From Gammaproteobacteria bacterium Ga0077554 (GTDB lineage Bacteria; Pseudomonadota; Gammaproteobacteria; Ga0077554; Ga007554), in NCBI GenBank assembly GCA_001464585.1, contig LNFF01000017.1, forward strand, positions 1 to 60,211: a DNA stretch of 60,211 nucleotides, in the 5' to 3' direction. This document shows positions 6,091 through 59,523 of the stretch, in pieces; positions within the stretch are counted from its first letter, which is position 1; each line of letters starts with the position of its first letter. The notes below the pieces were generated by a model. The model made no database searches, had not been told where the DNA came from, and saw nothing but the letters and a program-made list of their open reading frames with translations. The position numbers were made by a program, and so were the translations under genes.

Positions 6091-6214
6091 AGTCTTGTCA
6101 TCCCGAACGTAAGAATAACTGTCATCCCGAACGTAGTGAGGGATCTTAAACAGGTTATTAAGATCTCTCACTACGTTCGAGATGACAGGGGATAATATTC
6201 GGGATGACAAGACT
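6091..6214. repeat. Nested palindromic repeat (family R1) between trmL and lysA
   Basis: An inner inverted repeat (6121-6186) starts GTCATCCCGAACG and ends CGTTCGAGATGAC. It is enclosed by an outer perfect 17-bp inverted repeat: AGTCTTGTCATCCCGAA (6091-6107) against TTCGGGATGACAAGACT (6198-6214). Both levels carry the same GTCATCCCGAA end, as if one copy had inserted into another. It lies between convergent genes and could also act as a bidirectional terminator. Confidence 0.8.
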
Positions 6215-9547: not shown

Positions 9548-10350
9548 CAAAACAACAGCATTCACCCGCAGCCGTGGCAGCCGCCATCGAAGAGCAACAT
9601 GTCGTAGAGTTTCTACGTACGCAGCCGGAATTTTTTACGCGCCATCCGGATGTGCTGATGGACATGACCCTGCATCACTCCAGCGGCACGGCAATCTCGC
9701 TAATTGAGCGGCAAGTCGTCAACCTGCGTGAACATAACCGCCATCTCAAAAGCCAGTTACATGACCTGGTGCAAATCGCACGCGATAATGACCGCCTCAG
9801 CGAACGCATGCATCGCCTGGGGTTGTCGTTGATGGATTGCACCACCTTGCAGGACGTTTTCATCGGCATTTACGAGAGCCTGCGCAATGATTTTCAGGCC
9901 GATGCCGTCGTCATGCGCTTAATGGCCAAACCCAAAGTCGCCCTCAACGATGCGGCCACCGACGCCGTACAGGACGTACAAGTGTCGCGTGAGGCAGGGA
10001 TGCCGGAAGCGACCAATGGCGTGTTGTTTGTCGACAAGGATGACGTAGCATGGGACGCCTTCAAAGGCTTTCTCAAAAACGCCAAACCCGTGTGCGGCCA
10101 CCTCGGCGCCACACAAATGAACTACCTGTTTGGCGACCAGGCCAGCAGCGTGGCCTCCGCCGCGTTGATTCCCCTAACCGGCATTCCCGGAGGGGGTACT
10201 GGTGTTGGCCAGTTGCGCGTTCCAGCCGGTATCGTCGCCATCGGCAGCTACGACACCGAGCGTTTCCATCACGGCATGGGCACACACTTCCTGTCACAAA
10301 TGGGCGAAATAACCAGTTGCGCCGTGCGGCCTTATCTGGCGACGGAGTAA
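9544..10350 (+). CDS. DUF484 (YigA-like) GAF-fold protein with an inserted repeat
   Basis: Member of DUF484, the gene between dapF and xerC. 268 residues against about 235 in enterics. It opens with an N-terminal helical region containing [19 protein letters not shown], then a coiled-coil (about 55-95), then a GAF-like domain. Residues from about 142 to 157 ([16 protein letters not shown]) are encoded exactly by a 47-bp two-hairpin repeat element (9967-10013). A second glycine-rich stretch ([16 protein letters not shown], about 215-230) also looks longer than usual. Cellular role unknown. It overlaps dapF by 4 bp and precedes xerC by 19 bp. Confidence 0.9.
9967..10013 (+). repeat. Two-hairpin AAGTG element, A-type, inside DUF484
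   Basis: SL1 is GTACAGGACGTAC (9967-9979). The linker AAGTG is at 9980-9984. SL2 has outer stem GTCGC/GCGAC, sharing the last linker base, and inner stem GGCA/TGCC closing loop GGGA. It is 47 bp, the same length and layout as copies in era, the GT2 gene and the flippase-like gene. The SL2 sequence is nearly identical to the flippase copy, although that one lies antisense to its gene. It is read in frame with no stop. Confidence 0.75.
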
Positions 10351-13573: not shown

Positions 13574-13587
13574 TTGCTGCGTTTATT

Positions 13588-13669
13588 GTCATCCCGAACG
13601 CAGAGAGGGATCTTGCAAGATCTCTCACCTTTGTTCGAGGCAAGGATTTCTCGCTGTGCTCGAAATGAC
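13588..13669. repeat. R1 palindromic repeat
   Basis: It starts GTCATCCCGAACGC and ends GCTCGAAATGAC, with an internal second pairing around GGGATCTTGCAAGATCTCTC. It is preceded by GCTTGCTGCGTTTATT, as in the copies at 30003 and 53771. It lies between the antitoxin remnant and the convergent aldehyde dehydrogenase. Confidence 0.8.
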
Positions 13670-13692
13670 ATTGAAAATCGCCGTCTTCAGTG

Positions 13693-20169: not shown

Positions 20170-20175
20170 ATGTGT

Positions 20176-20257
20176 GTCATTTCGAGCAAAGCGAGAAATC
20201 TTGAAAGATTTCTCACATTCGTTCTAGACAAGGATTTCTCCCTGCGGTCGAAATGAC
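20176..20257. repeat. R1 palindromic repeat between DUF502 and aspS
   Basis: Outer arms GTCATTTCGAGC and GGTCGAAATGAC, with internal pairing of GAAATCTTGAAAGATTTC. This subtype has TTTCGA in place of CCCGAA. It sits between codirectional genes of a conserved cluster. Confidence 0.8.
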
Positions 20258-20300
20258 AATACTCCAGGATTAAAATTACACAATCATCAGGAAAAGTATC

Positions 20301-22133
20301 ATGCGTAGCCATTATTGCGGGCAATTAAATGAGTCATTACTAGGCCAGCAAGTCGAATTATGCGGCTGGGTGCATCGCCGTCGTGATCATGGCGGCGTGA
20401 TTTTTCTTGACCTGCGCGACCGTGAAGGTCTGGTGCAGGTGGTGTTCGATCCGACCGTCAGGGATGACGGAAGTGCTGGAAATGCAGGAGCAACTTTCCA
20501 GCCCGTCATGGCCGAAACATTTAGCAGTGCCGAACGCGTGCGCGGTGAATATGTGTTGCAGGTTAAAGGCACGGTGCGCCGCCGTCCTGCGGGCACTGAA
20601 AATGCCAACATGCCCACCGGGCAGGTTGAAATTGTTGCGCAAGCGCTGGAGATTTTAAACCGCGCAGAGCCACCGCCATTTTCAGTGAGTGATGATGTGG
20701 AAGTCAGCGAAGAAGTGCGCTTGCGTTATCGCTACATAGACTTGCGTCGCCCGCAAATGTTGCAGCGCTTGCGTATGCGTGCCAAAGTTGCATCTAACAT
20801 GCGGCGTTTTCTTGATGATCAAGGTTTCATGGATGTTGAAACGCCGATTCTCACCAAGTCCACGCCAGAAGGTGCGCGCGACTATCTGGTGCCGAGCCGC
20901 ACCCATCCGGGCGAGTTTTTTGCGTTGCCGCAATCACCGCAGTTGTTTAAACAATTACTGATGATGGGCGGCCTGGATCGCTATTACCAGATTGTGCGTT
21001 GTTTCCGTGATGAAGATTTGCGCGCTGACCGCCAGCCGGAATTCACGCAACTGGATATCGAAACTTCGTTCATGAACGAAGATCAGATCATGGCGCTCAT
21101 GGAAACCATGTTACGCAAATTATTCAGTGAAGTGCTGGAAGTCGCTTTGCCCAATCCGATACCACGCATGACTTATGCCGAAGCGATGTCGAGATTTGGT
21201 GTCGACAAGCCCGATCTGCGCATTCCTTTGGAATTGGTGGATTTGGGCGATTTAATGAAAAATGTCGATTTCAAGGTGTTCTCGGGCGCGGCCAATGACC
21301 CGAAAAGCCGCGTCGCCGCCTTGCGCGTACCGAGCGGTGGCGCGCTGAGCCGCAAAGAAATTGATGATTACACCCAGTTCGTTGCGATTTACGGCGCCAA
21401 GGGGCTGGCCTATGTCAAAGTCAATGACCGTGCCGCAGGCCGCGAAGGTTTGCAGTCGCCGATTTTGAAATTCATGCCCGATGACGTGATCGCCGCGATG
21501 CTCGAACGCACCGGCGCACAGAATAATGACCTGATCTTTTTCGGCGCGGATAAAACCAATATCGTCAACGAAGCATTGGGTGCGCTACGTATCAAGGTCG
21601 GCCATGATCGCGGGCTGGTAGAGCACGGCTGGCGGCCGTTGTGGGTGGTTGATTTCCCCATGTTTGAGTGGGATGAAAAGGAAAAACGCTGGTCGGCCTT
21701 GCATCATCCGTTTACCGCCCCCACTGTAAATGATATTGAAAAGCTTGAGGCGGATCCGGGCGCGGCGTTGTCGCGTGCCTATGACATGGTGTTAAATGGC
21801 ACTGAAGCGGGTGGTGGTTCTATCCGTATCCACCGTTCCGAAATGCAGTCGGCGGTATTCCGTATTTTAGGCATTGGCGAAGAAGAGGCGCGCGACAAGT
21901 TTGGCTTCCTGCTGGATGCGTTGACCTACGGCTGCCCACCACACGGTGGTATCGCTTTTGGCCTGGATCGTTTGATCATGTTAATGAGCGGTGCGCAGTC
22001 GATACGTGACGTCATGGCCTTCCCCAAAACCCAAACCGCCGCGTGTCCGTTGACATCAGCGCCTTCACCGGTGGCAGATAAGCATCTGCGCGAGTTGGGT
22101 ATACGCTTGCGCACGGCGGCAGTGCCCAATTAA
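20301..22133 (+). CDS. aspS: Aspartyl-tRNA synthetase with an inserted repeat-encoded segment
   Basis: Class II synthetase charging tRNA-Asp, 610 residues (about 590 in E. coli). Seen: an N-terminal OB-fold anticodon-binding domain (1-110), motif 2 [18 protein letters not shown], the bacterial GAD insertion domain (about 290-420), and motif 3 [13 protein letters not shown]. Residues about 52-70 ([19 protein letters not shown]), between VVFDP and AETF in the OB fold, are encoded by a 48-bp two-hairpin element (20455-20502) and its flank; orthologues normally have only one or two residues there. As a single essential gene it must tolerate the insert. Confidence 0.96.
20455..20502 (+). repeat. 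Two-hairpin AAGTG element, B-type, inside aspS
   Basis: SL1 is CCGTCAGGGATGACGG (20455-20470), followed by AAGTG (20471-20475). SL2 has outer stem GCTGGAAA/TTTCCAGC and inner stem TGC-AGGA-GCA. CCGTCAT (20503-20509) can also pair with ATGACGG of SL1. Relative to the copy at 59245-59292, SL1 and SL2 stem bases change in pairs while linker and SL2 loop are identical. It is read in a different frame from the copies in the GT2 and flippase-like genes. Confidence 0.8.
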
Positions 22134-22152
22134 GGAGACGCTGATTTGATCT

Positions 22153-22234
22153 GTCATTTCGAGCGCAGCGAGAAATCCTTGTCTCGAACGAATGTGAGAG
22201 ATCTTCCGGGATTTCTCGCTGCGCTCGAAATGAC
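22153..22234. repeat. R1 palindromic repeat between aspS and nadA
   Basis: Arms GTCATTTCGAGCGCAGCG and CGCTGCGCTCGAAATGAC pair perfectly over 18 bp, with internal pairing around GAAATCC / GGGATTTC. It is 20 bp after the aspS stop and could terminate that transcript, although no T-run follows. Confidence 0.85.
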
Positions 22235-22277
22235 ACGCTTCAGGGGCTCCTGAAATATACAAAGCGAGGTAAAGTTT

Positions 22278-25548: not shown

Positions 25549-25605
25549 GTCATCCCGAACGAATGTGAGGGATCTTCAAGGATTCTTCGCGGCGCTCGGA
25601 ATGAC
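25549..25605. repeat. R1 palindromic repeat, short form
   Basis: Arms GTCATCCCGAACG and GCTCGGAATGAC around a 30-bp centre. It is followed at 25611-25645 by a degraded copy of the CCCCGCAGCTTGCTGCGGGG plus T-run unit seen after the copies at 30003 and 53771. It lies between convergent genes. Confidence 0.75.
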
Positions 25606-25639
25606 AGGGAAATACCCCCGCAATTTGCTGCTGGGATTG

Positions 25640-29978: not shown

Positions 29979-30110
29979 TCCCCGCAGCTTGCTGCGTTTA
30001 CTGTCATCCCGAGCGAAGCGAGGGATCTTGCTTAAGATTTCTTCCCCCACTTTCGCGGGGGGTCGGAATGACATGGAAATACCCCGCAGCTTGCTGCAGG
30101 GATTTTTATT
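29979..30110. repeat. R1 repeat with flanking CCCCGCAGCTTGCTGCG units
   Basis: The core R1 palindrome is 30003-30072 (GTCATCCCGAGCG ... GGTCGGAATGAC), with a second C/G-rich hairpin (CCCCCACTTTCGCGGGGGG) in its right half. It is preceded by CCCCGCAGCTTGCTGCG and followed by CCCCGCAGCTTGCTGCAGGG plus ATTTTTATTTT (30082-30110), a terminator-like unit. The same order recurs at 53749-53870. It lies inside the rpoE-degP cluster and probably weakens readthrough into degP. Confidence 0.8.
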
Positions 30111-35677: not shown

Positions 35678-36653
35678 AGCAATAATGAAAAGCACCGACC
35701 AGCCCAACAACATTACCAGCCGCTGCGGCTATGCCGCGATTATCGGCCGCCCTAATGTTGGCAAATCAACACTGCTGAACCATATTCTCGGGCAAAAAAT
35801 CAGCATTACATCGCGTCGGCCGCAAACTACGCGACACCGCATTCTGGGGATTAAAACTACCCCTGAGGCGCAAGTGATTTATGTCGACACACCGGGTTTG
35901 CATCGTGGCGGCAAGCGTGCCATGAATCGTTACATGAATCGCGTTGCCGCATCATCCATCAAGGATGTGGATGTGGCCCTGTTTGTGGTCGAAGGTTTAC
36001 GCTGGACGCCTGAAGATCAGGACGTGCTGGAGCGGTTGAAAAAAGAAAATGTCCCGGTGATTCTGGTGGTGAATAAAGTGGATAAAATCACCGACAAGGA
36101 AACCCTGTTGCCGCACTTGCAAAAAGTGTCCGGTTATATGCGCCGGGCAGGATGCCCAAGTGGGGTGGGCGCAGGGATGCGCGAGAACCACGACTTTGTG
36201 CAGATCATCCCGATTTCCGCGCGACACGGCACCAATGTTGAAGCTCTGGAGCAGGAAATCCTGCGTTTATTGCCGCTTGCGCCGCATATGTACCCTGAAG
36301 ACCAGGTCACCAACCGTAGCGAGCGTTTTCTTGCCGCTGAACTGGTGCGCGAAAAATTGACCCGGCGCCTGGGGCAGGAAGTGCCACATTCGTTGACTGT
36401 CTCTATCGAGCAATTTTCCGCAGAGGCTGGCATAATAAATATTACCGCGCTGATCTGGGTGGAGAAGCCAGGCCAGAAATCCATCGTCATCGGCAAAGAC
36501 GGCGGCGTGCTCAAAGAAGTAGGCACGCAAGCCCGGCAGGACATGGAACGCATTTTTGATAATAAGGTTTTTTTAACTTTATGGGTCAAAGTCAAGGAAG
36601 GCTGGTCTGAAGACGAGCGCGCATTGCGCAGCCTCGGGTATGATGATACATAA
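35670..36653 (+). CDS. era: GTPase Era with an inserted repeat-encoded segment
   Basis: Ribosome assembly GTPase binding 16S rRNA. 327 residues against about 300. G1 is GRPNVGKSTLLN; other motifs are DTPGLH, NKVDK and PISARHG (G5). The C-terminal KH domain has IVIGKDGGVLKEVG. About 17 extra residues (RRAGCPSGVGAGMRENH) just before FVQIIPISA are encoded by a 47-bp two-hairpin element (36145-36191). The insert lies between G4 and G5 and leaves all G motifs intact. Start GTG 35670 or ATG 35685. Confidence 0.95.
   Translation: MSKAIMKSTDQPNNITSRCGYAAIIGRPNVGKSTLLNHILGQKISITSRRPQTTRHRILGIKTTPEAQVIYVDTPGLHRGGKRAMNRYMNRVAASSIKDVDVALFVVEGLRWTPEDQDVLERLKKENVPVILVVNKVDKITDKETLLPHLQKVSGYMRRAGCPSGVGAGMRENHDFVQIIPISARHGTNVEALEQEILRLLPLAPHMYPEDQVTNRSERFLAAELVREKLTRRLGQEVPHSLTVSIEQFSAEAGIINITALIWVEKPGQKSIVIGKDGGVLKEVGTQARQDMERIFDNKVFLTLWVKVKEGWSEDERALRSLGYDDT
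36145..36191 (+). repeat. Two-hairpin AAGTG element, A-type, inside era
   Basis: SL1 is GGGCAGGATGCCC (36145-36157), then AAGTG (36158-36162). SL2 has outer stem GTGG/CCAC and inner stem GCGCA/TGCGC with loop GGGA. Length and layout equal the copies at 9967, 57710 and 59180, but stem sequences differ with pairing preserved. Confidence 0.75.
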
Positions 36654-50884: not shown

Positions 50885-50972
50885 CCGTCATTCCCGCGAA
50901 GGCGGGAATCCAGCATTTGGAACAGATGATAAATCAATAACTTCTGGATTCCCGCCTTCGCGGGAATGACGG
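50885..50972. repeat. 29-bp perfect inverted repeat, 'ATTCCCGC' family
   Basis: Arms of 29 bp (50885-50913 and 50944-50972) are perfect inverted copies beginning CCGTCATTCCCGCG and joined by a 30-bp AT-rich centre. Each arm itself contains the hairpin TTCCCGCGAAGGCGGGAA. It resembles dRS3-like repeats widespread in proteobacteria. It occupies the place where truB is expected. Confidence 0.9.
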
Positions 50973-53748: not shown

Positions 53749-53870
53749 CCCGTAGCTTGCTGCGTTTATTGTCATCCCGAACGAAGTGAGGGATCTTGCT
53801 TAAGATTCCTCGCTGTGCTCGGAATGACATAGAAATACCCCGCAGCTTGCTGCGGGGATTTTTATTTTTT
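53749..53870 (+). repeat. R1 repeat with flanking CCCCGCAGCTTGCTGCGGGG terminator unit
   Basis: CCCCGTAGCTTGCTGCG, then the R1 palindrome 53771-53828 (GTCATCCCGAACG ... GCTCGGAATGAC), then CCCCGCAG-CTTG-CTGCGGGG (53838-53857) with ATTTTTATTTTTT. The last unit is a textbook terminator downstream of pnp. The same composite order occurs at 29979-30110 and, degraded, near 25549-25645. Confidence 0.85.
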
Positions 53871-55219: not shown

Positions 55220-56686
55220 CTAATATGACCCAGGCACCGGCCATCTAATCGGACGGTAATTTTTGCACACCCTGCCATAAAAAACACGCAGCACGCGGCC
55301 ATCGGCGGCACGGGCTTCGATGGGGGGTAGCGCTATACACTGCTCAAAGGCTTGAGCAAGTTGCGCGGGAGGGGATGGGCTGCCACTGACAAAAATAGCG
55401 TTGCGGCCTGCTTCACGGTCGATGCTGGGCCACAGGTCATGCTGATTAAAGCGCCGGCCACTGTTGCCAGTGATATACACGGGCACGCGATGCGGCCAGT
55501 AAAAGGCTAACTCGCCAGCCATGGCGTAGGATTCTGTCAAAATAAAATCATGGTTGGGCGCTTGTGCGGCGAGCATGGCGATGGGTTGTTGCCAGGCTTT
55601 GGTGTCCTTGAATGGGTCGCCGCTCAGGCCGAAGACATGGGGAAAGTAGGCGATGCCCATCAACACGGTGGCCAGGGCCATACCGGTATACAGAATACGT
55701 TGCTTGATATGTGAAAACGCTGGAACGTGTCCCGCAAATAAAATCACAAGACCAATATAGCTGGGCGCAGGCCAGTTAATCTGCACCTTGGCGCTGAGCG
55801 CCTTGAAGGCGAAGAAGCCGATCCAGCACAGCGCCAGCCACCACAAAAAACGTTGGTCATCGCGTGCCGGGCGCCGCCACAATACGCTGACGGCGAGTGC
55901 TGCCACGATCGGCGATAGCGCCATGAACTGGCCGCCGATAAAATCCAGCAGGTATTGGTTGGATGAGCCACTTTTTACATGCCCCATTTCATGGCGGAAC
56001 ATCACCCAGTTGTGGGTGGCGTTCCAGAAAATCACCGGGCTCATGAATGCCAGCAACACTGCCACGCCGCCCCATACATGCGGATTTTTCAGGTGATGGC
56101 GCAACTGGGGATTAAGCAGAATCAGCAGCCCGGCAAAAAATGGCAACAGGCCAATGCTGAGTTTGGTGAGCGCACCGATGCCAATTGCGGCACCGGCTTC
56201 ATACCATGCCAGCGGTTGATTTTTGAAAAGCGCGCGATAGATCGCCCACAATCCCCATGTCCAGAAAGTGAAGAGGAAGATGTCAGTAGACATCACCATG
56301 CCGAGGGTAAAATATAAGGGCGTGAACAGGGTGATGATCACTGCCCACCACGCGGCGCGGCGGTTGCCCCACACATCGTGGGCGAAGAAAAATACCAGCG
56401 CCAGCAAGATGCCGTGCGCGAGCCAGCCAAACAGGCGTACCTGCCATTCGCCATGGCCGAACAGCGCTTCGGATAGCGCGATCAACCAGGCGAGTAGCGG
56501 ACCTTTGGAATAGTAGCTCCAGTCGAGTTGTTGCGACCACTCCCAGTATTGCGCTTCGTCGTAATGCAGATCAAAACCGGCGGCCTGGGTGAGCCAGGCT
56601 TTGAAACCCAGCAAGGTGATGGCGAGCAGGGCTAGCGTGCGCACGTCCCGATGCCGATCGGATAATGTCACACGGGGTGTTTCCAA
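55220..56686 (-). CDS. GT39/ArnT-like membrane glycosyltransferase
   Basis: 488 residues with about 11 hydrophobic segments. FDLHYDEAQYWEWSQQLDWSYYSKGPLLAWLI carries the DE motif and the second acidic motif (MVMSTDIFLFTFW) of polyprenyl-phosphate-sugar-dependent transferases (PMT/ArnT superfamily). It should transfer a sugar from a polyprenyl-phosphate donor to a periplasmic acceptor (lipid A, protein or glycan). Its start overlaps the GT2 gene by 19 bp. The upstream GT2 likely makes its donor. Confidence 0.88.
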   Translation of the reverse strand: METPRVTLSDRHRDVRTLALLAITLLGFKAWLTQAAGFDLHYDEAQYWEWSQQLDWSYYSKGPLLAWLIALSEALFGHGEWQVRLFGWLAHGILLALVFFFAHDVWGNRRAAWWAVIITLFTPLYFTLGMVMSTDIFLFTFWTWGLWAIYRALFKNQPLAWYEAGAAIGIGALTKLSIGLLPFFAGLLILLNPQLRHHLKNPHVWGGVAVLLAFMSPVIFWNATHNWVMFRHEMGHVKSGSSNQYLLDFIGGQFMALSPIVAALAVSVLWRRPARDDQRFLWWLALCWIGFFAFKALSAKVQINWPAPSYIGLVILFAGHVPAFSHIKQRILYTGMALATVLMGIAYFPHVFGLSGDPFKDTKAWQQPIAMLAAQAPNHDFILTESYAMAGELAFYWPHRVPVYITGNSGRRFNQHDLWPSIDREAGRNAIFVSGSPSPPAQLAQAFEQCIALPPIEARAADGRVLRVFYGRVCKNYRPIRWPVPGSY

Positions 56687-57798
56687 TCCGCGTCGGAGAC
56701 GTTGTCCACCGCCGCTTTGTTGCGCACAATGTAGGAGTGGGTGTTGCTTGATTCAAAATAAGTGCGTGCGGTCAATTCACTGAGTACGCCAGTCGTAAAA
56801 AACTGCACCGCGACTACTACGAACAACACGCCGATCATCAGTAGCGGTCTGGTGCCAATGTTTTCATCGAGAAACACTTTGATGAAAAATAAATAGCCGA
56901 GAATGGCGGTGCCGAGTGCGCCAAAGATAAAGCCGATCTTGCCAAAAAAGTGTCCGGGGCGGCTCCTGTAACGCATGAAAAAATACACCGAGAGCAAATC
57001 GAGAATCACGCGGAAGGTGCGCGAAATGCCGTATTTTGAGGTGCCAAATTGCCGGGCATGGTGTTGCACGACTTCTTCTTTGATGCGGGATGGCGACGTG
57101 CTTGAGGCCAGCCATGCAGGAATGAAGCGGTGCATTTCACCGTAGAGGCGCACGCTTTTCAGCACATGGGCGCGGAATACTTTGAGGCTGCAACCGTAAT
57201 CGTGCAAATGCACTTGCGTGATGCGGCCGATCAGCCGGTTAGCGATCCACGATGGCACTTTGCGCAGCCATAGGCCGTCTTTGCGGTCTTTTCGCCAGCC
57301 TGATACCAGATCAAGATCTTCGTTGATCAGGCGTTCCACCATACGCGGAATGTCGATGGGATCATTTTGCAAATCACCGTCGAGCATGGCGATGATGTCA
57401 CCGCGCGCGGTATCAATGCCCGCTTGCATGGCGGCGGTCTGGCCGAAGTTACGCTGCAAATTCACCACCCGCACATGCGCGCCGTATTGTTGTTGCATGT
57501 GCTTCATCTGGTGTTCAGTATTGTCGGCGCTGCCATCATTGACGAGAATCAGCTCCCATTGATACGCGTAATCCTTAAGCACTTCATGAACGCGCGCAGC
57601 CATGGGAGCAACGCTTTGCTCTTCGTTATACATGGGAATCACAATCGAAAGCCGATGTGGTGAAGGCAAGCGGCCGGAAAGTTGCTCCTGCATTTCCGGC
57701 ACTTCCGCCGTGCAAGGATGCACAAGTGCCGAGGGCGCAGGATGCGCAGGATCGGCCTCCATCCCTGGCGGTTGTGTGATGGGTTCAATGATTTTCAT
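56668..57798 (-). CDS. Polyprenyl-phosphate glycosyltransferase (GT2, GtrB/ArnC-like) with a repeat-encoded N-terminal insert
   Basis: 376 residues. The GT-A domain starts HRLSIVIPMYNEEQSV (about residue 48), with LVNDGSADNT, DGDLQNDP (the DXD metal site), SGWRKDRKDG and RFIPAW; two C-terminal membrane helices (about 285-345) fit the GtrB/DPM1 type, which loads a sugar onto polyprenyl phosphate. The N-terminal residues from about 10 to 42, including ALVHPCTAEVPEMQEQLSG, are translated from a composite of repeat elements (57673-57771). It overlaps the PAP2 gene by 4 bp and the GT39 gene by 19 bp. Confidence 0.92.
   Translation of the reverse strand: MKIIEPITQPPGMEADPAHPAPSALVHPCTAEVPEMQEQLSGRLPSPHRLSIVIPMYNEEQSVAPMAARVHEVLKDYAYQWELILVNDGSADNTEHQMKHMQQQYGAHVRVVNLQRNFGQTAAMQAGIDTARGDIIAMLDGDLQNDPIDIPRMVERLINEDLDLVSGWRKDRKDGLWLRKVPSWIANRLIGRITQVHLHDYGCSLKVFRAHVLKSVRLYGEMHRFIPAWLASSTSPSRIKEEVVQHHARQFGTSKYGISRTFRVILDLLSVYFFMRYRSRPGHFFGKIGFIFGALGTAILGYLFFIKVFLDENIGTRPLLMIGVLFVVVAVQFFTTGVLSELTARTYFESSNTHSYIVRNKAAVDNVSDADWKHPV
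57673..57771. repeat. Composite of AAGTG two-hairpin elements in the GT2 gene
   Basis: Plus-strand order: SL2-B reversed (57673-57700, arms GCCGGAAA/TTTCCGGC), CACTT, a truncated SL1-B (CCGCC), a full 47-bp A-type element (57710-57756: GTGCAAGGATGCAC, AAGTG, nested stem GCCGA/TCGGC with inner GCGCA/TGCGC), then a lone SL1 (CCTCCATCCCTGGCGG, 57756-57771). 99 bp, an exact number of codons. The A-type copy is antisense to the gene, the B-type sense. Confidence 0.75.
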
Positions 57799-58406
57799 GG
57801 GTCAGACTTTGTTGTCCGTAAAGGGAGCTTTAATAAAGTGATCCGAGCTTGAATGCGTTGCATGAAGCCAAGGTATTTTAACCCAATCCAGGCGCCAAGA
57901 AAGCCTAATATTGCGCCAATCGTAGCGCCCGCGAGCACTTGCAGGGGGTAATGTTTACCTAAATAGATGCGTGAAATGCCCACCAGTAACGCTAATGTGA
58001 GCAGGCTTACTGACCAGGCCCACGAGCGCATCACCAGGCTTAAAAAAATAGCTGTGGCAAAAAAATTGAGCGCATGGTTGGACGGCATGCCATTTGGGGC
58101 GCTGCCACACGGGGTATTGGGGGGCGCTCCGAGCTGGCGCACCAGCTCGGGTTGTGCGGAGCAGGGGCGTAGTTGATCCGTACTGTGCTTGATGATGTTG
58201 CCCAGCCCGTCACCCACGCCAATCACCAGCACCAGCACCAGCCACAGTTTCGCGCCGTCTTGCTTGAAACGCCAGCTATAAAATATCAGCAATAATCCCA
58301 GCAACGGAAAACTGAAGCTGGCGCGTTGTGAAATCCAGTGGAAGAAGACATCCAGCGCGGGGTGCGCCCAGTCCTGGTTAATCCACAGCAGGAGTGTTTC
58401 ATTCAT
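57795..58406 (-). CDS. PAP2-family membrane phosphatase
   Basis: 203 residues from ATG 58406 (MNETLLLWINQDWAHPALD). About five to six hydrophobic segments. The phosphatase motifs are split: KHSTDQLRP, MPSNHALN (usual PSxH) and SRIYLGKHYPLQVLAG, with the catalytic His residues present. Family members remove phosphate from undecaprenyl pyrophosphate, phosphatidylglycerophosphate or lipid A. In this operon carrier-lipid recycling or lipid A dephosphorylation is plausible. It overlaps both neighbours by a few bases. Confidence 0.9.
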   Translation of the reverse strand: MNETLLLWINQDWAHPALDVFFHWISQRASFSFPLLGLLLIFYSWRFKQDGAKLWLVLVLVIGVGDGLGNIIKHSTDQLRPCSAQPELVRQLGAPPNTPCGSAPNGMPSNHALNFFATAIFLSLVMRSWAWSVSLLTLALLVGISRIYLGKHYPLQVLAGATIGAILGFLGAWIGLKYLGFMQRIQARITLLKLPLRTTKSDP

Positions 58407-59523
58407 GCGTTTTTTTCTCATGCGGTGATCGGCCCAGCAACAGGCTGATCGCGCCACCGATCAAAGTCGACGCCAGCAGAAACAGATGCAGGTTGACCGC
58501 CGCAGGCAACGCATTTTGCGGCGTGATGCCATAAGGCAGCAGCCCGGCGATCACTCCCGCTTCATATGTGCCCATACCTGCCACGCCGTGTACCGGCAAC
58601 ACACTGGTAAGATCGCCTGCAATCACGCCCATCAGTGCGGCGGTGGGCGCAATATCAATAAATAACAGCAGCACCCAGGCGAAGACCGCCAGCTTGACTG
58701 CCCAGGTGATCACCGTCCACGCCCAGGCGCGCCAGAAGTCGCTGCGGCTCTGGGGCAGGCTATTGAGGGTTTTGTGCAGTAGTGAGTGAAATCTGCCTGT
58801 GGCAGTTTTTTTCTGCAAGGTGCGTTGCCAGTGGCCTTGCCCCCAAGACATCAGTAGAGGCAAAAGCATCCATGCCAGCAGCAGAATGCCTCCCGCCACC
58901 GCAGAGGGCGCCGTACCCCATGCCCATCCAGCGAGAAGCGCGCACGCACCCAAAGTGTGCAAATCCAGCAGACGGAACCAAAACAGAGCAGGGATAGACC
59001 GCGCCATTGGTATGGCGAAGTGCCGCATCATCAGCACCGGAAAACTGATTTCGCCAGTACGCATCGGCAACAGATTGTTAAGGAAGTTATGTTGTAGTGT
59101 CACTTTGAAGCACAGCGCAAATGCGCCCTGCATTTCCTTGCGACCGGAAAATTGCTCCTGCATTTTCGGCACTTTCGCCGTGCAAGGATGCACAAGTGTC
59201 GCGGGAGGCAGGATGCCGGAAGCGACCGCCATCCGTGGCGGGCGGTCGGAAAGTTGCTCCTGCATTTCCGACACTTCCGCCATCCGTGGCGGGCGAAAAT
59301 AGTCATATAAACGCATGGCGCGTGTCCAATAACTGACGAACGCCAATCCCAGTGCGGCGAATATTTGACCGGCAGACAGGGTTTGCCATGGGGCGAGTAA
59401 TCGCACCCAGCCAAAGTAGTGTTCCACAAGCACCACAAAGCCAATAAAGAGAGCGACGCCCAATAGTTTTTTCAGTGTGGTGCCTGACCAAAGATTGCGG
59501 ATTATAAAGGAATTTGTTTTCAC
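58399..59523 (-). CDS. Lysylphosphatidylglycerol-synthase-TM/UPF0104-type flippase-like protein with repeat insert
   Basis: 374 residues with about eight membrane segments. FLNNLLPMRTGEISFPVLMMRH and GVAGMGTYEAGVIAGLLPYG are signatures of the AglD/MprF transmembrane family, proposed to flip lipid-linked intermediates. Between MRLYDYFRPPRM and GAFALCFKVTLQHNF about 50 residues (including SEMQEQLSDRPPRMAVASG and VPKMQEQFSGR) come from an array of repeat elements (59144-59292). It is the first gene of the reverse-strand lipid-linked-sugar operon. Confidence 0.85.
   Translation of the reverse strand: MKTNSFIIRNLWSGTTLKKLLGVALFIGFVVLVEHYFGWVRLLAPWQTLSAGQIFAALGLAFVSYWTRAMRLYDYFRPPRMAEVSEMQEQLSDRPPRMAVASGILPPATLVHPCTAKVPKMQEQFSGRKEMQGAFALCFKVTLQHNFLNNLLPMRTGEISFPVLMMRHFAIPMARSIPALFWFRLLDLHTLGACALLAGWAWGTAPSAVAGGILLLAWMLLPLLMSWGQGHWQRTLQKKTATGRFHSLLHKTLNSLPQSRSDFWRAWAWTVITWAVKLAVFAWVLLLFIDIAPTAALMGVIAGDLTSVLPVHGVAGMGTYEAGVIAGLLPYGITPQNALPAAVNLHLFLLASTLIGGAISLLLGRSPHEKKTHE
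59144..59292. repeat. Array of AAGTG two-hairpin elements in the flippase-like gene
   Basis: Plus-strand order: SL2-B reversed (about 59144-59170, imperfect), CACTT, a truncated SL1-B, a full 47-bp A-type (59180-59226: GTGCAAGGATGCAC, AAGTG, nested GTCGC/GCGAC with inner GGCA/TGCC), a lone SL1-B (CCGCCATCCGTGGCGG, 59226-59241), then a full 48-bp B-type reversed (59245-59292: GTCGGAAA/TTTCCGAC, CACTT, CCGCCATCCGTGGCGG). The first 98 bp parallel the GT2 composite. Confidence 0.8.

Follow-up and report, generated by a model that had tools for sequence, protein, structure and literature searches.

Two genes that likely belong to one operon of a gammaproteobacterial genome carry arrays of DNA hairpins about 1.4 kb apart, and the hairpins follow the same order in both. 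How did two unrelated genes come to share such an arrangement? The arrays lie in a window of 60,211 nt, by which we mean the whole stretch of DNA that was analyzed. Four genes are encoded there head to tail on the minus strand: a PMT_2-type transferase gene (55220-56686), a GT2 glycosyltransferase gene (PF00535, 56668-57798), a PAP2-family gene (PF01569, 57795-58457) and a flippase-like LPG_synthase_TM gene (PF03706, 58399-59523). The first array is carried by the GT2 gene and the second by the flippase-like gene, with the PAP2-family gene between them. Because the genes run head to tail with overlapping ends, we consider it likely from the sequence that the array-bearing genes form a single operon.

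A sequence-only reading had located both arrays and their common order correctly, and had held that this order must stem either from a composite that moved as a unit or from the copying of one array into the other gene. Orthologous genes in related genomes lead away from both, as they document stepwise nested insertion at the aspS and GT2 sites. We estimate a probability of about 80% that the arrays consist of small, non-autonomous mobile palindromes, each 51 nt long, and that their like order came about through the repeated landing of one such element, A, inside another, B. Insertion is read here from comparisons of alleles.

Anatomy and folding of the 51-nt units

The composite in the GT2 gene is a B element with an A element nested in it, 102 nt or 34 codons long and in frame (57673-57774, minus strand). 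The nested A belongs to the GCGC subfamily and occupies 51 nt (57706-57756, minus strand; covariance model R1 match at 57707-57757, 77.7 bits), its ends being taken from empty-site comparisons of other A copies. On its two sides lie the parts of the interrupted B, namely the X-hairpin side with its ACTT linker (57673-57705, minus strand) and the SL1 side (57757-57774, minus strand). The array in the flippase-like gene is also in frame and measures 153 nt, or 3 x 51 (59143-59295, minus strand), as it comprises a B with a nested A' and a complete second B. Here the nested A' is a 51-nt element of the GGC subfamily (59176-59226, minus strand; R1 match at 59177-59227, 68.8 bits), and the complete B beside the composite is likewise 51 nt long (59245-59295, minus strand; covariance model R2 match at 59242-59295, 83.5 bits). 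The position of A in the composite is the foot of B's SL1, which reads ..ATGGCG^[A]^GAAGTG.. on the coding strand. The order of parts given by the sequence-only reading stands, but its 'half SL1' and 'lone SL1' are not separate parts: they are the two sides of one SL1 of B, split by A. The 'half SL1' resembles CCGCC because the terminal tetranucleotide of A (CGCC on this strand) lies directly against the split.

The 51-nt units share a common build: hairpin X, which is imperfect, is joined through an ACTT linker to hairpin Y, which is perfect and has a TCCN (NGGA) loop. In B, the X hairpin GCTGGAAA..TTTCCAGC encloses an inner stem and a TCCT loop, and is followed by ACTT, SL1 CCGCCATCCNTGGCGG and TCG, for a total of 51 nt. 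The layout of A is that of B: an X hairpin of GCCGC..GCGGC or GTCGC..GCGAC with an inner stem around ATCCT, then ACTT, the Y hairpin GTGCATCCNTGCAC and GGCG, again 51 nt. In the GT2 gene of one relative (G001) and the flippase gene of another (G005), the loop of B contains a third nested unit, which is about 48 nt long and carries a GTAG tag. In the composites at loci L006, L012 and L026, the B-like half bears a GGTAG/GATAG motif, which may point to some mixing with REPs that have the GTAG tag.

The hairpins are maintained across copies. In an alignment of 38 A copies (A1), 97.1% of cells are paired, changes on both sides of a stem occur in 28 cells versus 5.9 expected from shuffles, and covariation is 0.272 versus 0.138 in shuffled alignments, a level reached in 0/500 shuffles. 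Pairing and covariation are similar in the alignment of nine distinct B copies, and the pairing signal is lost when the partners are slid against each other. Judged from these alignments, stem variation in A and B is compensatory, and a fold as DNA or as RNA would fit.

Target site and candidate routes of movement

Comparison of filled and empty alleles at five clean sites gives an inserted block of 51 nt, whose ends are ambiguous or overlap by no more than 2 nt, and none of the five has a target-site duplication. The base at position -1 is G in 86 of 100 A copies and in 18 of 20 B copies. The tetramer to the left of A copies is most often GGCG, as are the last four bases of A itself; B ends mostly in GTCG or GGCG, and its SL1 contains GGCG. 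Among 64 A copies that lack GGCG on the left, the left tetramer is identical to the end of A in only 2, so the flank of A is not a duplicated target. As these alleles read, insertion is 3' of a G, prefers GGCG and proceeds without target duplication. Two other interpretations of the flanks were tried and rejected: a 4-nt target duplication, with CGCC on both sides of A in composites, is ruled out by the clean empty sites and the tetramer comparison, and a MITE moved by a DDE transposase would be expected to leave a target-site duplication that these sites do not have.

By analogy with IS200/IS605 or REP/RAYT systems, the elements could move as folded single-stranded DNA served by an enzyme in trans, a route to which we give roughly even odds. 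Genes of the RAYT or Y1_Tnp type occur in many of these genomes. No mobilizing enzyme was found, and neither A nor B flanks the RAYT/Y1_Tnp loci examined: a screen for hairpins and motifs at 30 RAYT loci, including one of the three in the window's own genome (G000), turned up a single element, at locus L081 of G002, inside a neighboring rlmKL-like gene. G004 has a RAYT yet almost no elements. These observations bear on the alternative that the elements are in essence REPs with an altered tag, mobilized by a resident RAYT. The presence of RAYTs, the tetranucleotide that stands at the foot of each imperfect hairpin and the GTAG-bearing unit nested in B in G001 and G005 all lend it some weight, but A and B carry AAGT rather than GTAG, many of their copies are intragenic and they do not flank the RAYT loci examined, and we regard it as unlikely, though the least so of the alternatives.

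Probable stepwise filling of orthologous sites

The window holds a B within aspS (20452-20502, plus strand), where it forms a 17-residue insert in the OB-fold region. At this site B stands alone in G000 and G002, with SL1 CCGTCA..TGACGG, and G001 has that B variant too, its SL1 bearing a 51-nt A' at the foot; the insert is absent in genera g2 and g3. Precise loss of A in the lineage of G000 and G002 could mimic a gain in G001 at aspS. At the GT2 site, the orthologous B contains no A in G002, an A' in G001 and an A in G000, and the composite is absent from the short N-termini of genera g2 and g3. The flippase site is empty in G001, G003, G004, G006 and G007 and filled in G000, G002 and G005. 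G002 is the closer relative of G000, at 97% identity in the aspS segment and 84% in polA, versus 81% and 70% for G001.

We propose that B would land first in each gene and that its SL1 arm (..ATGGCG^G..) would then offer a GGCG landing site. A, itself ending in GGCG, would insert there and so give the same composite order in unrelated genes, and tandem growth of the arrays would obey the same rule. A preference of A for GGCG, with B's SL1 supplying this tetramer, would be enough to produce the recurring order. On the alleles compared, recurrent nested insertion at a preferred target most likely explains the order, and does so better than unit movement or array copying.

Movement as a unit would mean that the composite of B and A formed once and that the operon genes received two copies of it. 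The composite itself is real, since a whole-genome search aligns the GT2 and flippase versions at 85% identity over 102 nt (E 6.5e-26), and it recurs: the search gave 47 composite-derived matches in G000, including a third full composite on contig 8 (89%, E 3.1e-32), so that chance resemblance is far from sufficient. Outside the two operon genes, composites with A at the same point of B lie at C8:79092, C25:57201 and C40:101188 in G000, and others in G001 and G005, as a traveling unit would predict. Against this, members of the A and A' subfamilies are found at one and the same point of B, the aspS site has B alone and B with A' in congeners around one SL1 variant, and the GT2 site has a B with none, A' or A. 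We therefore hold it improbable that unit movement accounts for the shared order. Some composites may have moved in this way, and the composites in GT2 and at C8:79092 have a common A subfamily, with A parts 94% identical and B parts about 82% identical by hand count. The sequence-only reading had named a composite found nowhere else and orthologues with stepwise gain as observations that would tell against it; the composite does recur, but the orthologues do carry stepwise nested insertions.

Among 20 further G000 copies taken down the score list, 9 fall inside a Pfam domain match. Another 5 are located close to the end of an open frame that has a Pfam match, and an N-terminal copy of this kind may actually precede the start codon. 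A or B is in frame in many conserved genes, among them aspS, pheT, polA, rimM, gpsA, lpxK, glk, coaX, etfB, hprK, yhdP and a rubredoxin reductase gene, and copies in G002, G003, G005 and G006 lie in frames that read, on sequence inspection, as era, alr, aat and argS. At the etfB, pheT, hflD, glk and coaX sites relatives are shorter by exactly 17 residues, and at the aspS, rubredoxin reductase and cyclase gene sites by 51 nt, making eight filled/empty sites in total with an exact 17-residue (51-nt) difference. The AspRS insert accounts for 17 extra residues relative to the solved AspRS of P. aeruginosa and E. coli. As the elements are present or absent as exact 51-nt units, the reading frame is kept, and we infer that translation turns the inserts into 17-residue loops which the proteins tolerate. 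Openness of the elements in all six frames was considered as a sign of selection and set aside as weak, because shuffled sequence is open in all six frames in 43% of cases for A, 22% for A' and 17% for B; a GC-rich composition explains part of why they lack stop codons.

It is very improbable that ribosomes instead bypass the inserts or that the inserts are cut out of the mRNA. The inserts do form hairpins and do occur in essential enzymes, AspRS and PheRS among them, but their lengths are multiples of 3 (51, 102 and 153), partly eroded copies stay in frame as well (aspS of G001 minus 9 nt, rimM of G002 minus 39 nt) and the open frame is continuous through the insert in Pfam-matched genes, though frames were chosen open.

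The two arrays of the operon can also be compared directly. The difference between their A stems that the sequence-only reading pointed out is genuine (GCCGA/TCGGC in GT2 versus GTCGC/GCGAC in the flippase gene), and its argument against a recent duplication between the two genes is borne out: the two A parts match each other at 71% identity, and each matches other genomic copies at 94%. Copying of one array into the other gene, by gene conversion or duplication, would account for the 1.4 kb proximity and the same order, but it is refuted for the A part by this nearest-neighbor identity (the flippase A' ranks twelfth among the neighbors of the GT2 A), and as G001 has the GT2 array and lacks the flippase array, we give it almost no credence.

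Horizontal exchange may have touched one of these sites. In G005, a member of g2, the 21 nt just ahead of the flippase array, ATGCGTTTATATGACTATTTT, match the G000 gene exactly, and other g2 members differ there (L060). Arrival of this array by recombination from a g1-like donor is only suggestive, given the few sites.

Spread and relation to known systems

Element A is abundant. The R1 model detects at least 145 copies in the 2.9-Mb G000 genome, a count that draws on searches and retrieved stretches of the genome and on the scoring of 150 candidates, and, among relatives, at least 142 in G002, 71 in G005, 47 in G006, 45 in G001, 22 each in G003 and G007 and 1 in G004. Across a sample of 274 Gammaproteobacteria genomes, 50 genomes from 43 genera have A-model matches at E <= 1e-6, where class-wide E-values are rough owing to a short calibration of the model. 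In other gammaproteobacterial families, genes named by sequence inspection carry a tandem in-frame pair of A (2 x 51 nt, murD of G087) and an in-frame A (moaA of G088), at loci L229 and L235. The B core matched one record in a named genome collection, the MAG SW_26; G002 is this MAG, Gammaproteobacteria bacterium SW_26 (L076, JAGVME010000095.1; 100% over 3507 bp). No Rfam 15 family matches the elements at E <= 1, and the literature searched, of incomplete coverage, gave no earlier description of a 51-nt element.

The window contains other repeats as well. Two further diverged A-like copies lie at 9964-10014 and 36142-36192 (R1, 51.1 and 42.2 bits), the first within an open reading frame. A separate MITE-like inverted-repeat family, TGTCATTYCGAGC...GAAATGACA, is found at 6119-6188, 13587-13670, 20175-20258, 22152-22235, 25553-25606, 30002-30029 and 53770-53797, and at L012 and L026 A-bearing composites appear inserted within copies of this family. 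At 50885-50972, a 34-nt near-perfect hairpin, CCGTCATTCCCGCGAAGGCGGGAATCCAG, represents a different palindromic repeat.

Extended to the class, our tentative view, to which we give somewhat less than even odds, is that there exist coding-compatible mobile palindromes of a fixed 51 nt that move as folded single-stranded DNA, spread for the most part within genes and land at GGCG, with nesting producing loops of 17, 34 or 51 residues in essential enzymes.

Three known systems invite comparison. Rickettsia palindromic elements (RPEs) are 105-146 bp long and were reported from Rickettsia (PMC2229807). Like the elements described here, they are palindromic, repeated and found in frame in genes for conserved proteins that have insert-free orthologues, and also between genes (PMC2229807). 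The 51-nt two-hairpin unit, compared by description, falls outside the RPE length range, and it differs further in its gammaproteobacterial host, its many more copies, its nested insertions and its G/GGCG target. REP elements are GTAG- or CGTC-tagged and mostly intergenic, with some intragenic in other bacteria (PMC3733652). The imperfect hairpin, the unpaired tetranucleotide at its foot, the compensatory stem variants and the occurrence in clusters are all REP-like (PMC3733652). In contrast to REPs, A and B have AAGT (ACTT on the other strand) as their tag rather than GTAG or CGTC and comprise two hairpins per unit, and many copies are intragenic, with no RAYT association found at the loci examined. 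Because they fail the RPE length and the REP tag, we do not count the elements as members of either group.

IS200/IS605 elements have hairpins at or near their ends, insert 3' of a short target without target duplication and have a right end with its own fixed tetranucleotide. The elements here resemble them in inserting 3' of a short target without duplication, in their hairpins and in their fixed end tetranucleotide; they differ in that no transposase gene lies inside or beside the element and in that the left hairpin already starts at base one, so that a 5' guide sequence would have no space. Single-strand transposition of the IS200/IS605 type is mentioned by name in PMC6006769.

The best-known in-frame palindromic insertions are those of the obligate intracellular genus Rickettsia, along with scattered intragenic REPs; here a related phenomenon is abundant in a 2.9-Mb gammaproteobacterial genome. 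It comes with a fixed unit length, a target rule and an allelic series of nested insertions. Since empty and filled alleles coexist for enzymes such as AspRS, PheRS, glucokinase and EtfB, the long-standing questions of how palindromes move and how proteins gain internal loops become directly testable.
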